In this document: in pieces, positions 11,077 through 63,656 of the stretch
Position numbering within the stretch: the stretch's first letter is position 1
Layout: the number at the start of each line of letters is the position of its first letter
NCBI RefSeq assembly: GCF_012044895.1
Contig: NZ_CP050695.1
Coordinates: forward strand, 1,704,501 to 1,768,500
DNA: 64,000 bases
Reading direction: 5' to 3'
Source of the DNA: Aquisalimonas sp. 2447
Lineage (GTDB): Bacteria > Pseudomonadota > Gammaproteobacteria > Nitrococcales > Aquisalimonadaceae
Notes under the pieces: model-generated
What the model saw: the letters and a program-made list of their open reading frames with translations, nothing else
Database searches by the model: none
Told to the model about the DNA's origin: nothing
Made by a program: the position numbers and the translations under genes

Positions 11077-12554
11077 CGACTCCCTGTGCGACGCTGCAAC
11101 CCGACCGGGAAACCCTGGCCCGGCGCCTGTGCGAGCGCTATGCCAGCATCGTGGATGACCCCGAGGCGCTGATCGCTGCGCTGCTGCGGCCGCTGCCGTC
11201 CACTCTCTGGGCCAATCCCCGGCGTCTGTCCCGGGAGGAGTTGCAGGCCATTCTGGCGGCGGACGGGATTGCGTCGACGCCGCTGCCATGGTCCAGCCAC
11301 GGCCTGCGCCTGTCGGAAGGTGCGCGCCCCGGGCGCCACTGGGGCTTCCTTGCCGGGTTGTTCCAGGTGCAGGAAGAAGCCTCCATGCTGCCGGTGGAGT
11401 TCCTGGACCCGCATCCCGGTGAACGCGTGCTGGATCTCTGCGCGGCACCGGGGAACAAGACTGCGCAGATCGCCCTGGCCATGGCCAACCGCGGCACCGT
11501 CATGGCCAACGATCTCAAGAAGGGGCGCCTCGCCGCCCTGCGCCAGACCATCAAGCGCCTGGGGCTGCTGAACGTGGCCATCACCTGCCAGGACGGTCAG
11601 GCCATCGGTGCCCGCGCCGGTGGCTTCGACCGGGTGCTGGTGGATGCGCCCTGCACCTGCGAAGGGACCTTTCGCAAAGTGACCCAGCCCACCATCAGCG
11701 ACGCGGGGTTCCGCAGCCGGCGCGCGGCGGTCCAGCTCAGGCTGCTGGAGCGCGCCCTGCGCCTCACCCGGCCGGGCGGTCGCATCGTTTACTCCACCTG
11801 TACCCTGGCGCCGGAGGAGAACGAAGCCGTGGTGGATACGCTGCTGCACCGCTACCCGGGCGATGTGCGCCTGCTGCCGGCACGCCTGCCCGGGCTGGAC
11901 GGGGCGGCCGGGTTGACCGGATGGCAGGGGCGAACATTCGATCCGTCCCTGGCGGACACCCTGCGCCTGTGGCCGCACCACAACGACACCGGTGGCTTCT
12001 TCGTTGCCGTGCTGGAACGCTCGGCCGGCGCCCCTGTCATCCGCGACCCGGCCTGGTTCCGGCCTCCGGAGGAGGCGCGGGAGTGGCTGCAACCGCTCAC
12101 CGATCGCTTCGGCATTGCCGCTTCCGCGTTCCAGGGGGTGGTTCCGGTGAAGCGCGGCAACAAGCACCTGCATCTGGCACCGGAGGATCACCGTTACCCC
12201 GAGGCACCCGCTCCGGTCATGCTCGGTCTGCCCGCGGTCCGCCGGCGCAGCCTGCCGGTGAAGCCCACCACCGCGGCAGCCATGCTGTACGGGCACGCTG
12301 CGGTGCGCAACTGCCTGGGCCTGGACACCGCCCAGGCGCAGGCCCATCTGGATCGGGAGGTCATTTTTCCCCGGCGCGAACAGCTCGGCGATTGCACTGG
12401 GCCGGGGTATGTGGTGCTGCGCTATCGCGGCTACACCCTGGGCCTGGGCCAGTTGATCTACGACCGGGAGACCGGCAAGCCCAGAATCTTGAGTCTGATG
12501 CCCAAGGCCTGGGCTAAGGACGCCGCCACACTCACTCCTGAAGAAGGTGGGTGA
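11064..12554 (+). CDS. rsmF: 16S rRNA m5C methyltransferase (RsmF/NOL1-NOP2-Sun family)
   Basis: S-adenosylmethionine-dependent RNA cytosine-C5 methyltransferase; by length (496 aa) and C-terminal domain it fits RsmF, which methylates C1407 of 16S rRNA. Visible are the SAM motif VLDLCAAPGNKTAQIA (near residue 128), the nucleophile region DAPCTCEGT and the general motif YSTCTLAPEENEAVV. The second half contains a PUA-like tail (GYTLGLGQLIYDRE). The DAPCTCEG sequence differs from the DAPCSGEG of E. coli RsmF by having two cysteines. ATG 11064 overlaps the upstream membrane-protein gene. A fixed RsmF assignment over another Sun-family member is likely but not certain. Confidence 0.78.
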   Translation: MADVTTPCATLQPDRETLARRLCERYASIVDDPEALIAALLRPLPSTLWANPRRLSREELQAILAADGIASTPLPWSSHGLRLSEGARPGRHWGFLAGLFQVQEEASMLPVEFLDPHPGERVLDLCAAPGNKTAQIALAMANRGTVMANDLKKGRLAALRQTIKRLGLLNVAITCQDGQAIGARAGGFDRVLVDAPCTCEGTFRKVTQPTISDAGFRSRRAAVQLRLLERALRLTRPGGRIVYSTCTLAPEENEAVVDTLLHRYPGDVRLLPARLPGLDGAAGLTGWQGRTFDPSLADTLRLWPHHNDTGGFFVAVLERSAGAPVIRDPAWFRPPEEAREWLQPLTDRFGIAASAFQGVVPVKRGNKHLHLAPEDHRYPEAPAPVMLGLPAVRRRSLPVKPTTAAAMLYGHAAVRNCLGLDTAQAQAHLDREVIFPRREQLGDCTGPGYVVLRYRGYTLGLGQLIYDRETGKPRILSLMPKAWAKDAATLTPEEGG

Positions 12555-12741: not shown

Positions 12742-12770
12742 TTGCGCGCGGGTGGCGCGGGTGCTAGTTT
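12742..12770 (+). promoter_or_regulatory. Candidate sigma70-type promoter producing a leaderless leader-peptide mRNA
   Basis: TTGCGC at 12742-12747, a 17-bp spacer and TAGTTT at 12765-12770. The match to consensus is moderate (3 of 6 in each box), but the spacing is ideal and transcription starting 7 bp after the -10 box would begin on the A of the leader ATG at 12777. No Shine-Dalgarno precedes that ATG, consistent with a leaderless mRNA. Confidence 0.4.
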
Positions 12771-12776
12771 GCGACC

Positions 12777-12875
12777 ATGAAGACGTACGGCCATCACTCC
12801 TATTGGCGCGCCGACTGGCGATTTAGCGGCCCGGGTCTCGTGGACCGCTCCGGGAGGGATGTGCCCCTGTGTTGA
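12777..12875 (+). CDS. Aromatic/His-rich leader peptide (32 aa), putative attenuator peptide
   Basis: The short frame reads MKTYGHHSYWRADWRF, then SGPGLVDRSGRDVPLC and a TGA at 12873. Within residues 4-16 it has Tyr4, His6, His7, Tyr9, Trp10, Trp14 and Phe16, a density of aromatic and His codons typical of attenuator leader peptides such as TrpL, PheL and HisL. The stop is 32 bp before a perfect intrinsic terminator (12908-12942), and the pheS-like gene begins 35 bp after that. Bases 12830-12840, just past the aromatic codons, can pair with 12923-12933 in the terminator, giving an antiterminator. Ribosome stalling at Trp or Tyr codons would leave this segment free. Which amino acid is sensed is unresolved. 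Confidence 0.6.
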   Translation: MKTYGHHSYWRADWRFSGPGLVDRSGRDVPLC

Positions 12876-12907
12876 TGCCAACCATCTGAACAGGTGATTG
12901 CCACCAG

Positions 12908-12942
12908 AAACGCCCCCGGAGCCGAGGCCCGGGGGCGTTTTT
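12908..12942 (+). terminator. Intrinsic terminator in the leader (attenuator)
   Basis: AAACGCCCCCGG (12908-12919) pairs perfectly with CCGGGGGCGTTT (12929-12940) around a nine-base loop, and the T-run continues to 12942. A competing pairing between 12830-12840 (CCCGGGTCTCG) and 12923-12933 (CGAGGCCCGGG), ten Watson-Crick pairs and one G-U, would disrupt it. The position between a short leader ORF and a structural gene is the classic attenuator layout. Confidence 0.8.
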
Positions 12943-12977: not shown

Positions 12978-13622
12978 ATGAGTGACGACGGACAACGAAC
13001 GGAGGCCCTGCGCACGTTGCTGGAGCGCCGTGACCTGACGGACCCGGCCCAGGGGAGACACTCCATGCAGGAGCTGGTGGCACGCCTTTGCAACGCGGTG
13101 GACGGACGCCGACACCGGTCTCTGCGCACCCCGCCTTTGGTGCCGGCGGCCCAGGGCTGGAAAGCGCGGCACGCCACCACGGAGACGGTGCTGGCAGCCC
13201 TGCCGGACCTGGTCGCGGAAGAGCAGGATGGACTGCTGCTGAGCTGTGCCGGGGTGGTGTGCGGCAATCGTCAGCAGGACGCAACCGTGCTGGTGGCCCA
13301 TCAGCTGGACTGCTGGATCCTTGGTGAGCGTGCATCCACCGTGCTCTCGGGCGCAGTGGGCGGTGCCATGGCCGCGGCATTGCCGGGAGTGTCCTACCGC
13401 CTGCTACCGCAGCGTGACAGTCGCATCGGCCCGGGTTTCCGGGTGGACGTCCTGACTGACGGGCAGTGGCAGGAAGTGGGCCTTTGCGGCTTGCTGGAAG
13501 ACGAGGCCGCGGTTGCCGCCGGCTTCAGTCTGATGCTGGAGCCGTTGCTGGCCGTGGCGCCCTGGGTCGATTACGCACCGGCGGCCGGGATGACGCAGAC
13601 GGTGACCTCTTCACGGTCGTGA
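12978..13622 (+). CDS. Degenerate class II aminoacyl-tRNA synthetase-like protein (PheRS-alpha-like pseudo-enzyme)
   Basis: The 214-residue product follows the order of motifs of the PheRS alpha catalytic core. LSCAGVVCGNRQQDATVLVA then HQLD matches the motif 2 region (GRVYRxDxxDATHxxxFHQ) but both motif 2 arginines are lost (to Val and Gly). LPGVSYRLLPQ and FRVDV match LEVRFRPS and AEVDV; WQEVGLCGLL matches WLEVLGCGMV; AAGFSLMLEPL matches the motif 3 region (GFAFGMGxERL) with the catalytic Arg replaced by Pro. It has no N-terminal coiled coil and is shorter than PheS (about 330). Aminoacylation is therefore unlikely; a tRNA- or amino-acid-binding role is inferred. It sits behind an attenuator-like leader and its 3' end overlaps rlmM antisense by 52 bp. 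Confidence 0.65.
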   Translation: MSDDGQRTEALRTLLERRDLTDPAQGRHSMQELVARLCNAVDGRRHRSLRTPPLVPAAQGWKARHATTETVLAALPDLVAEEQDGLLLSCAGVVCGNRQQDATVLVAHQLDCWILGERASTVLSGAVGGAMAAALPGVSYRLLPQRDSRIGPGFRVDVLTDGQWQEVGLCGLLEDEAAVAAGFSLMLEPLLAVAPWVDYAPAAGMTQTVTSSRS

Positions 13623-28081: not shown

Positions 28082-28170
28082 GGAGAGGTGGCCGAGTGGC
28101 TGAAGGCGCTCCCCTGCTAAGGGAGTATGGGTACTGCCCATCGAGGGTTCGAATCCCTCCCTCTCCGCCA
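28082..28170 (+). tRNA. tRNA-Ser (anticodon GCT)
   Basis: 89 nt with acceptor GGAGAGG/CCTCTCC, D arm TGGCCGAGTGGCTGAAGG, anticodon stem CTCCC/GGGAG around CTGCTAA, a long variable arm (GTATGGGTACTGCCCATC) typical of class II tRNAs, T arm GGTTCGAATCC and encoded CCA. It reads AGC/AGU serine codons. Its last 19-20 bases are repeated at 28338. Confidence 0.97.
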
Positions 28171-29188: not shown

Positions 29189-29265
29189 TGGCGCGCCCGG
29201 AAGGATTCGAACCTCCGACCGCCTGGTTCGTAGCCAGGTGCTCTATCCAGCTGAGCTACGGGCGC
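29189..29265 (-). tRNA. tRNA-Arg (anticodon ACG)
   Basis: 77 nt: acceptor GCGCCCG/CGGGCGC, D arm AGCTCAGCTGGATAGAGC, anticodon stem-loop CCTGGCTACGAACCAGG with ACG (read as ICG after A34 deamination), T arm GGTTCGAATCC, discriminator G and encoded CCA. It covers CGU, CGC and CGA codons. Confidence 0.97.
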
Positions 29266-29369: not shown

Positions 29370-29459
<90 letters not shown>

Positions 29460-63292: not shown

Positions 63293-63656
63293 TGGTGGAG
63301 GTGGGGGGATTCGAACCCCCGTCCGCGGGAGATCCACCGTCGGATCTACATGCTTAGCCCGCCTATTGCATTCGCCGAGCGCTTCCCGGCAGGCAGCGGA
63401 ACACGCTCAACTAGCCTGATTGATTTAACAGCGTGGGGTGCAGGCGGAACCCCCTCGCTGCGGTCCTGTGAGCTACGACCCCCGAGTCGGAAGCACAGGC
63501 ACTTGCCGGTCGGGGGCTAGCGGGATTTAGGCCGCTAGAGCGTAGTTTTCGTCGTTGGCAACTATTTTAAGTTGGCCATCATGTTTTACGAGGTGAGATG
63601 ACGTCCTCGGCATGCACCTCAGGTTTCACGACCCACGTCGAGACCATGACACCCCC
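63293..63656 (-). ncRNA. ssrA: Transfer-messenger RNA (tmRNA)
   Basis: 364 nt one-piece tmRNA that with SmpB rescues stalled ribosomes. The 5' GGGGGTG pairs with 3' CACCTCC; the T arm is GGTTCGAATCC and CCA is encoded. The tag frame starts at GCC 63557-63559 and stops at TAA 63527-63529, encoding ANDENYALAA, the usual gammaproteobacterial type ending in ALAA. Pseudoknot-rich regions flank it. smpB is the upstream neighbour on the same strand. Confidence 0.97.

Follow-up and report, generated by a model that had tools for sequence, protein, structure and literature searches.

We analysed a 64,000-nt stretch of DNA (the window) and describe within it what is probably a ribosome-mediated transcription attenuator, which would turn on a gene of the SrmL type when charged tRNA-Phe runs short; where SrmL is full-length, the protein would be a standby enzyme for tRNA-Phe. 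This reading draws on comparison of sequences, predicted RNA pairing and structural models. It is carried by a leader open reading frame (ORF) whose putatively sensed codon stands just before the first of four pairing regions, by mutually exclusive and conserved antiterminator and terminator pairings, and by a gene product that is almost devoid of the amino acid in question.

The leader and its gene in the window

An earlier note, made from the sequence of the window, had proposed an attenuator-like leader ahead of a degenerate pheS paralogue, and the ORF, the exclusive pairings and the terminator on which it built are indeed present and conserved. The features are as follows, regions 1 to 4 being supported by duplex energies, region 1 also by the pairing comparisons and regions 3 and 4 also by covariation.

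Ending at 12554, upstream of the leader: rsmF-like methyltransferase gene
12742–12770, plus strand: predicted promoter, TTGCGC (12742–12747), 17-bp spacer, TAGTTT (12765–12770)
12777–12875, plus strand: leader ORF of 32 codons, ATG at 12777, TGA at 12873–12875, peptide MKTYGHHSYWRADWRFSGPGLVDRSGRDVPLC
12819–12824, plus strand: CGA-TTT (Arg-Phe), conserved candidate sensing codons, from leader comparison
12830–12840, plus strand: region 1, beginning 5 nt past the Phe codon and including the Pro codon 12831–12833
12847–12854, plus strand: region 2, antiterminator strand and partner of region 3
12908–12922, plus strand: region 3, containing the 5' arm of the terminator (12908–12919)
12923–12942, plus strand: region 4, containing the 3' arm of the terminator (12929–12940) and the T-run
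12978–13622, plus strand: controlled gene, a truncated SrmL-like PheS paralogue of 214 aa (NF051887, AlphaFold, dN/dS)
Downstream of the controlled gene, minus strand: rlmM (Pfam)

Reading and translating the leader ORF bore out its aromatic and His-rich character, with Y4, H6, H7, Y9, W10, W14 and F16 falling within a span of 13 codons. From its sequence, the predicted promoter would place the transcription start at or adjoining the leader ATG, i.e. the leader mRNA would be leaderless; a consensus scan that requires 9 of 12 matches called no promoter here. This leader holds the only copy of the motif CGATTTA-N4-CCC-N-GG in the 3.97-Mb genome. None of the five leader peptides searched was matched by an NCBIfam model, and Rfam, T-box and other families included, reported at gathering score only the tmRNA and tRNAs of the window and left the leader unmatched. 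These RNA genes lie at 63293–63656 on the minus strand (tmRNA, RF00023) and at 28082–28167, 29192–29265 and 29374–29459 (tRNAs). Weak Rfam matches in the window, the best being ctRNA_p42d at 25.8 bits against a threshold of 50, are probably hairpin look-alikes.

The terminator was found as described, a perfect 12-bp stem (12908–12919/12929–12940) that starts 32 nt past the leader stop and runs into TTTTT at 12938–12942, and the whole element (12908–12942) precedes the controlled gene. The alternative pairing put forward with it also holds, 12830–12840 (CCCGGGTCTCG) matching 12923–12933 (CGAGGCCCGGG) in 11 pairs including one G-U. A further alternative pairing, absent from that description, joins 12847–12854 (GCTCCGGG) to 12915–12922 (CCCGGAGC), giving a four-region layout in which 1:2 and 3:4 stand against 2:3, with 1:4 possible too. 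The respective duplex energies are −12.3 (1:2), −21.4 (2:3), −27.4 (1:4) and −27.8 kcal/mol (3:4). In equilibrium folding, 3:4 was present in all three states tried as soon as region 4 exists, and in a free RNA ending after region 3 the 2:3 pairing already forms because 1:2 is weaker; control must therefore be kinetic. A consensus terminator scan reported the window hairpin on the minus strand only, the plus-strand omission probably being due to its loop of 9 nt against an allowed maximum of 8.

The controlled gene, which a mechanical ORF list starts at GTG 12894 instead of 12978, proved to be a degenerate PheS paralogue as had been claimed, by a family match together with missing catalytic motifs. 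Its product matches the NCBIfam model NF051887 ('PheS-related mystery ligase SrmL') with an E-value of 1.7e-17 and 63.6 bits, below the cut-off of 300, and is barely detected by Pfam PF01409 (E 0.12). An AlphaFold model has an ordered core (pLDDT 80) whose best matches in the PDB are PheRS alpha chains (E 3e-9) and PylRS (E 2e-8). Among the class II motifs (alignment A3), RRD and the motif-3 Arg are absent and HQLD is kept.

The missing RRD and motif-3 Arg, the score of 63.6 bits against 300 and a frame that ends within the 3' end of rlmM would suit a decaying pseudogene in the window's order, with the leader as its relic. We consider this unlikely, as dN/dS of the window gene against three congeners is 0.21, 0.27 and 0.36 and that of three other pairs of the order 0.26–0.39 (dS exceeds 1 in five of the six pairs, all but the closest), the reading frame is open in all 14 homologues, and the modelled core is ordered. 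Moreover, the leaders of the window and of a congener (G002) differ at 4 of 96 nucleotides while synonymous sites of the gene differ by 26% (pS = 0.258). Judged by these substitution patterns, the gene is under purifying selection with its catalytic motifs lost and does not look dead; it is the eroded end of the SrmL family and no isolated oddity. Our guess is that the present role of the fragment is binding, of tRNA-Phe, phenylalanine or PheRS, without catalysis.

The final part of the gene (13571–13622) and the 3' end of rlmM, which is read from the opposite strand, occupy the same DNA; the protein tail encoded there, ...TQTVTSSRS, is common to the congeners and antisense to the rlmM C-terminus. 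This overlap may be the route by which the fragment lost its C-terminal domain. On the upstream side, the notion that the terminator merely ends an upstream transcript is refuted by a congener locus (L011), in which a minus-strand ORF (842–1201) separates the rsmF-like gene from the leader. This small ORF, which by eye we take to be a VOC-fold type protein, lies between these two elements in congeners; none was seen there in the window.

Leaders within and beyond the order

Of the order's 54 genomes, 14 carry the SrmL-like gene, with NF051887 matching all 14 members of the order's alignment, and in each case a short ORF starts 168–209 nt upstream of the gene (with GTG in L016 and TTG in L021). 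Counted by eye, W-R-F occurs in eight of these leaders and W-F in two. We built a covariance model (R1) from 19 leaders, which included eight of the 14 gene-bearing genomes of the order and left out six. Full-length matches with E-values up to 5.3e-5 came from exactly the 14 of 54 genomes with the gene; the best full-length match among the 40 gene-less genomes had an E-value of 0.0038. With E-values up to 0.1, 37 of the 54 genomes gave some match, beyond the 14 mostly to the terminator end only, and the partial matches include G022 (positions 64–132, E 4.6e-5) and G044 (positions 18–132, E 0.0018). A 100% complete genome of the same genus (G003) lacks both gene and leader and gave one fragment match (E 0.09).

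In the 10-pair terminator helix of R1, 92.6% of cells are paired and 14 double changes occur. The covariation score of the helix was reached by none of 500 shuffles, a test that favours the helix because it was taken from the same alignment; for pairs changed on both sides the result is less clear (34 of 500 shuffles). In the comparative alignment that the earlier note had proposed as a check, both the leader and the alternative pairing are conserved. Very likely, in our judgement, this leader is of the attenuator type and belongs to the srmL-like gene.

For a wider view, 51 SrmL loci were collected by searching named genomes once with a longer relative as query; by their record titles they come from Gammaproteobacteria, Myxococcota and Actinomycetota, plus single records labelled otherwise. 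A strict script, which asked for Arg-Phe-x-x-Pro within an ORF of at most 45 codons no more than 300 nt upstream, found such a leader at 42 of the 51 loci; for the other ORFs of 150 aa or longer, which include many shadow frames, it did so in 6 of 996 cases. In a set of 64 leaders located by a Phe two or three codons before a Pro, with Arg before Phe preferred, the counts of Phe and Pro hold partly by construction: Pro stands three codons past Phe in 60, and the codon preceding Phe is CGA in 50 and any Arg codon in 55. Phe itself is encoded by TTT in 61 and by TTC in three. Six leaders of this set (L020, L021, L026, L052, L055 and L072) were placed by eye.

In view of this construction, we applied a promoter-spacing rule that is blind to content, requiring TANNNT to end 6 or 7 nt before an ATG or GTG that opens a frame of 10–45 codons closed ahead of the gene. 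Across 92 upstream regions (the 64 and 28 from a second set fetched later) the rule gave exactly one ORF in 62 and none in 30. All 62 ORFs contain Phe, 58 contain F-x-x-P and 50 have a single Phe, while Trp occurs in 28, Tyr in 20 and His in 37. With near-copies removed, Phe is found in 34 of 34 and F-x-x-P in 31 of 34; on the reverse strand, used as control, the rule gave three ORFs, none with F-x-x-P. The mixed Trp, Tyr and His content described in the earlier note is a feature of this order, whereas the codon common to the leaders before srmL in gammaproteobacteria, myxobacteria and actinobacteria is that for Phe. The rule also gave the L051 leader as MEQSSRLQFRQPRPFGGAASACAD, the frame of which had been misread in the 64-leader set.

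Among the loci, L013 has the sequence of L023, and L050, L053, L054 and L056 are near copies. L053 and L054, from records labelled Acidithiobacillus marinus and Pseudomonas indoloxydans, are identical over the upstream 300 nt and the leader, perhaps by recent transfer or a mixed assembly. The leader peptide of L111 is the same as that of L061, possibly from the same organism.

The Arg before Phe is not universal. In the second set a script found F-x-x-P in 23 of 29 and R-F-x-x-P in 3 of 29, counts that include a chance match in L107; most of that set has R-W-F or R-L-F. By eye, L104, L107, L108 and L109 have R-F with S or L replacing P, and L134 reads R-L-F-I-R-P-R.

The same spacing, a TANNNT ending 6 or 7 nt ahead of the nearest start, is seen in 51 of a set of 90 leaders that includes many close relatives, and each other offset from 0 to 59 occurs at most four times; the leader ORF is therefore probably leaderless. 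Pairing is likewise widespread. When the downstream segment was exchanged for dinucleotide shuffles of itself, no more than 5 of 100 paired as well with the stretch following the Phe codon in 49 of 64 leaders. Among 32 de-duplicated leaders, own partners averaged −22.3 against −17.2 for swapped ones, a difference reached by none of 10,000 permutations; taken singly, however, only 6 or 10 of the 32 leaders have their own partner as the outright best. A ribosome stalled at the Phe codon would need just such a constant spacing to region 1. No clear T-run is seen in several leaders from actinobacteria and myxobacteria (L065, L069, L071, L028 and L044), where termination may thus not be of the classical kind. 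By eye, region 4 could in such leaders pair just downstream, for example GGUCGAGGGA...UUCCCGACC in L065. Rfam, run at gathering score over 14 of the 51 loci, returned tmRNA and tRNAs only, with no T-box or other family.

Could the leader and terminator work without sensing an amino acid, the RNA structure alone being conserved and the peptide incidental? Pairing does constrain the sequence past the Phe codon, and regions 1 and 2 overlap the ORF. Yet the ORFs found blind to content all carry Phe, with the F-x-x-P spacing in 58 of 62; the preference for TTT in the motif-located leaders (61 of 64) departs from the usage of the 51 SrmL genes themselves, in which Phe is encoded five times by TTT and 14 times by TTC; and the gene product is nearly Phe-free. 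We hold this alternative to be quite improbable. Sensing of a Phe-tRNA shortage through the Phe codon, on this comparative evidence, is likely.

The SrmL family and its avoidance of phenylalanine

Full-length SrmL has a PheS core (8 of 8 proteins searched) and a C-terminal FDX-ACB domain (7 of 8, four of these above the Pfam cut-off). Seven of eight proteins from other loci score 480–511 bits with NF051887, and L023 scores 219.9, below 300. With NF051887 as query, 369 gammaproteobacterial genomes returned mostly apparent ordinary PheS, two of the 369 lying above the cut-off. In an alignment of 17 SrmL sequences (A4), LR-T-T, RRD, HQ/HQLD and the motif-3 GLGLDR are invariant or nearly so. For one member a structure was predicted at pLDDT 93, and it aligns along its full length with human mitochondrial PheRS (E 4e-29). 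SrmL thus resembles that single-chain enzyme in whole-length fold and in domain order, PheS core followed by FDX-ACB, but differs from it in sequence (23–24% identity over the model), in being nearly free of Phe and in its pocket, where the mitochondrial motif FPFT becomes HPYT. Given this pocket, the amino acid activated by SrmL may not be Phe.

PheT was found above cut-off in all 10 SrmL genomes tested, drawn from the 51 loci, i.e. an ordinary PheRS stands beside SrmL, which is therefore a second enzyme. A standby tRNA-Phe ligase is the role we favour, on balance, for full-length SrmL. SrmL occurs sporadically: the order that includes the L050 genome has it in 4 of 194 genomes and the class that includes the L058 genome in 25 of 345, both counts taking in the centre genome. 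Its neighbours vary, the largest cluster that is neither SrmL nor apparent shadow frames of it covering 6 of 51 loci, all actinobacterial.

Such sporadic occurrence without a widely common neighbour, the altered pocket motif and the conserved peptide motif could also fit a drug-stalled leader or an arrest peptide (R-F-x-x-P-R) of the type known from erm leaders. SrmL would then be a second PheRS of the resistance type, and its inducer would be an inhibitor and not Phe-tRNA shortage as such. However, base pairing explains the residues past the Phe codon, and the Arg is replaceable or shifted. Since inhibition of PheRS would in turn deplete Phe-tRNA, this alternative, to which we assign a low probability, differs from the attenuator reading mainly in the cause of the shortage.

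The composition of SrmL is consistent with sensing of Phe-tRNA. The 51 SrmL proteins contain 19 Phe in 19,156 residues and 38 of them none at all, where the composition of 238 other ORFs from these loci, four of them without Phe, would predict about 550. In L038 all five Phe lie within the first 23 residues, possibly ahead of the true start. No other residue is as depleted, Lys being next at 0.47 of expected. Met and Tyr in the SrmL proteins L023–L073 stand at 1.70 and 1.46 of expected, above the other ORFs. The second set gave 2 Phe in 10,588 residues of 29 proteins; with L105, a wrong 86-residue reading at a contig end, dropped, 26 of 28 are Phe-free and 2 Phe remain in 10,502 residues. Ordinary PheS, presumed as such from the next-best matches of the NF051887 query, has 536 Phe in 8,607 aa (6.2%) and never less than 5% (26 of 28 loci). 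The homologues from the window's order have 28 Phe among 3,392 residues (0.8%), and the window protein has two; Phe is low there but its avoidance is relaxed. The simplest account would be that SrmL must be made when Phe-tRNA is unavailable, the same shortage that the leader appears to sense.

Proposed mechanism and related systems

We infer promoter use, stalling, the direction of control, enzyme activity and the role of the fragment from the features above. RNA polymerase would start at or beside the leader ATG, with a ribosome translating the 32-codon leader close behind. If charged tRNA-Phe is short, the ribosome would wait at CGA-UUU or at the preceding UGG and cover the start of region 1; in the window's lineage a shortage of Trp or Tyr is perhaps sensed too. 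With the stalled ribosome on region 1, region 2 would be free to pair with region 3, 3:4 would come too late and the gene would be transcribed. When Phe is plentiful, the ribosome would reach the stop codon, 1:2 would reform and 3:4 would terminate transcription. In other bacteria srmL would encode a near-Phe-free single-chain ligase that can be made while Phe-tRNA is scarce and charges tRNA-Phe as a standby. In the window's order this enzyme appears eroded, the window copy being a fragment without catalytic motifs that would keep the same switch upstream.

A bolder form of this proposal, in which we place little confidence as a whole, makes SrmL an emergency device. Once Phe-tRNA is exhausted, the one Phe codon of a leaderless leader would release a Phe-free single-chain synthetase, and tRNA-Phe would be charged anew, possibly with another aromatic amino acid in place of Phe (the pocket reads HPYT); ribosomes would keep moving over Phe codons, and SrmL itself would come out free of errors. 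The window's lineage would have kept the switch longer than the enzyme, and the switch would now drive a non-catalytic fragment.

In E. coli, pheST is controlled by a ribosome-mediated attenuator with a leader of Phe codons, PheM, and a terminator; PheM is Phe-rich and controls the housekeeping two-subunit PheRS. The element described here is alike in placing an attenuator, with a Phe codon in the leader and a terminator, ahead of a PheRS-type gene. It differs in having one constant Phe codon, usually as CGA-UUU, and a stand-alone paralogue, the likeness being one of layout. Compared with the Phe-rich leaders of E. coli a single Phe codon is a weak sensor, and slow decoding of CGA could sharpen its sensitivity.

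Streptomyces coelicolor reportedly has an auxiliary, indolmycin-resistant TrpRS under ribosome-mediated attenuation; this too would be a second synthetase under attenuation, unlike ours in being a Trp system. The excerpted text of PMC8079986 describes several Streptomyces leaders as leaderless, among them trpL2-trpS of Streptomyces lividans, with a single sensed codon, a monocistronic synthetase gene and hairpins without a T-run. The srmL leaders share the leaderless start, the one sensed codon, the synthetase-type gene and, in part, hairpins without a T-run, but concern Phe where that system concerns Trp; no word beginning with 'phenylalan' occurs in the main text of that paper.

The pheST attenuator of E. 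coli is mentioned in the excerpted text of PMC1262725. Among the matches listed in a literature consisting mostly of non-subscription papers, none deals with SrmL, with such a bacterial PheS paralogue or with a single-Phe leader. In the same full-text literature 'mystery ligase' occurs in no paper and 'PheS-related' in one, on a Streptococcus suis selection marker. Low cognate bias has been described for amino-acid biosynthetic enzymes (PMC4209129, excerpted text), and SrmL looks like an extreme case of it, here in a synthetase-like protein.

NCBI labels the SrmL family a mystery ligase, and its regulation and composition now point to a role, the amino acid that SrmL avoids being the one that its leader appears to sense. 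An orphan gene from several phyla would thereby allow one to test directly whether bacteria maintain a reserve synthetase suited to being made while the main enzyme fails.
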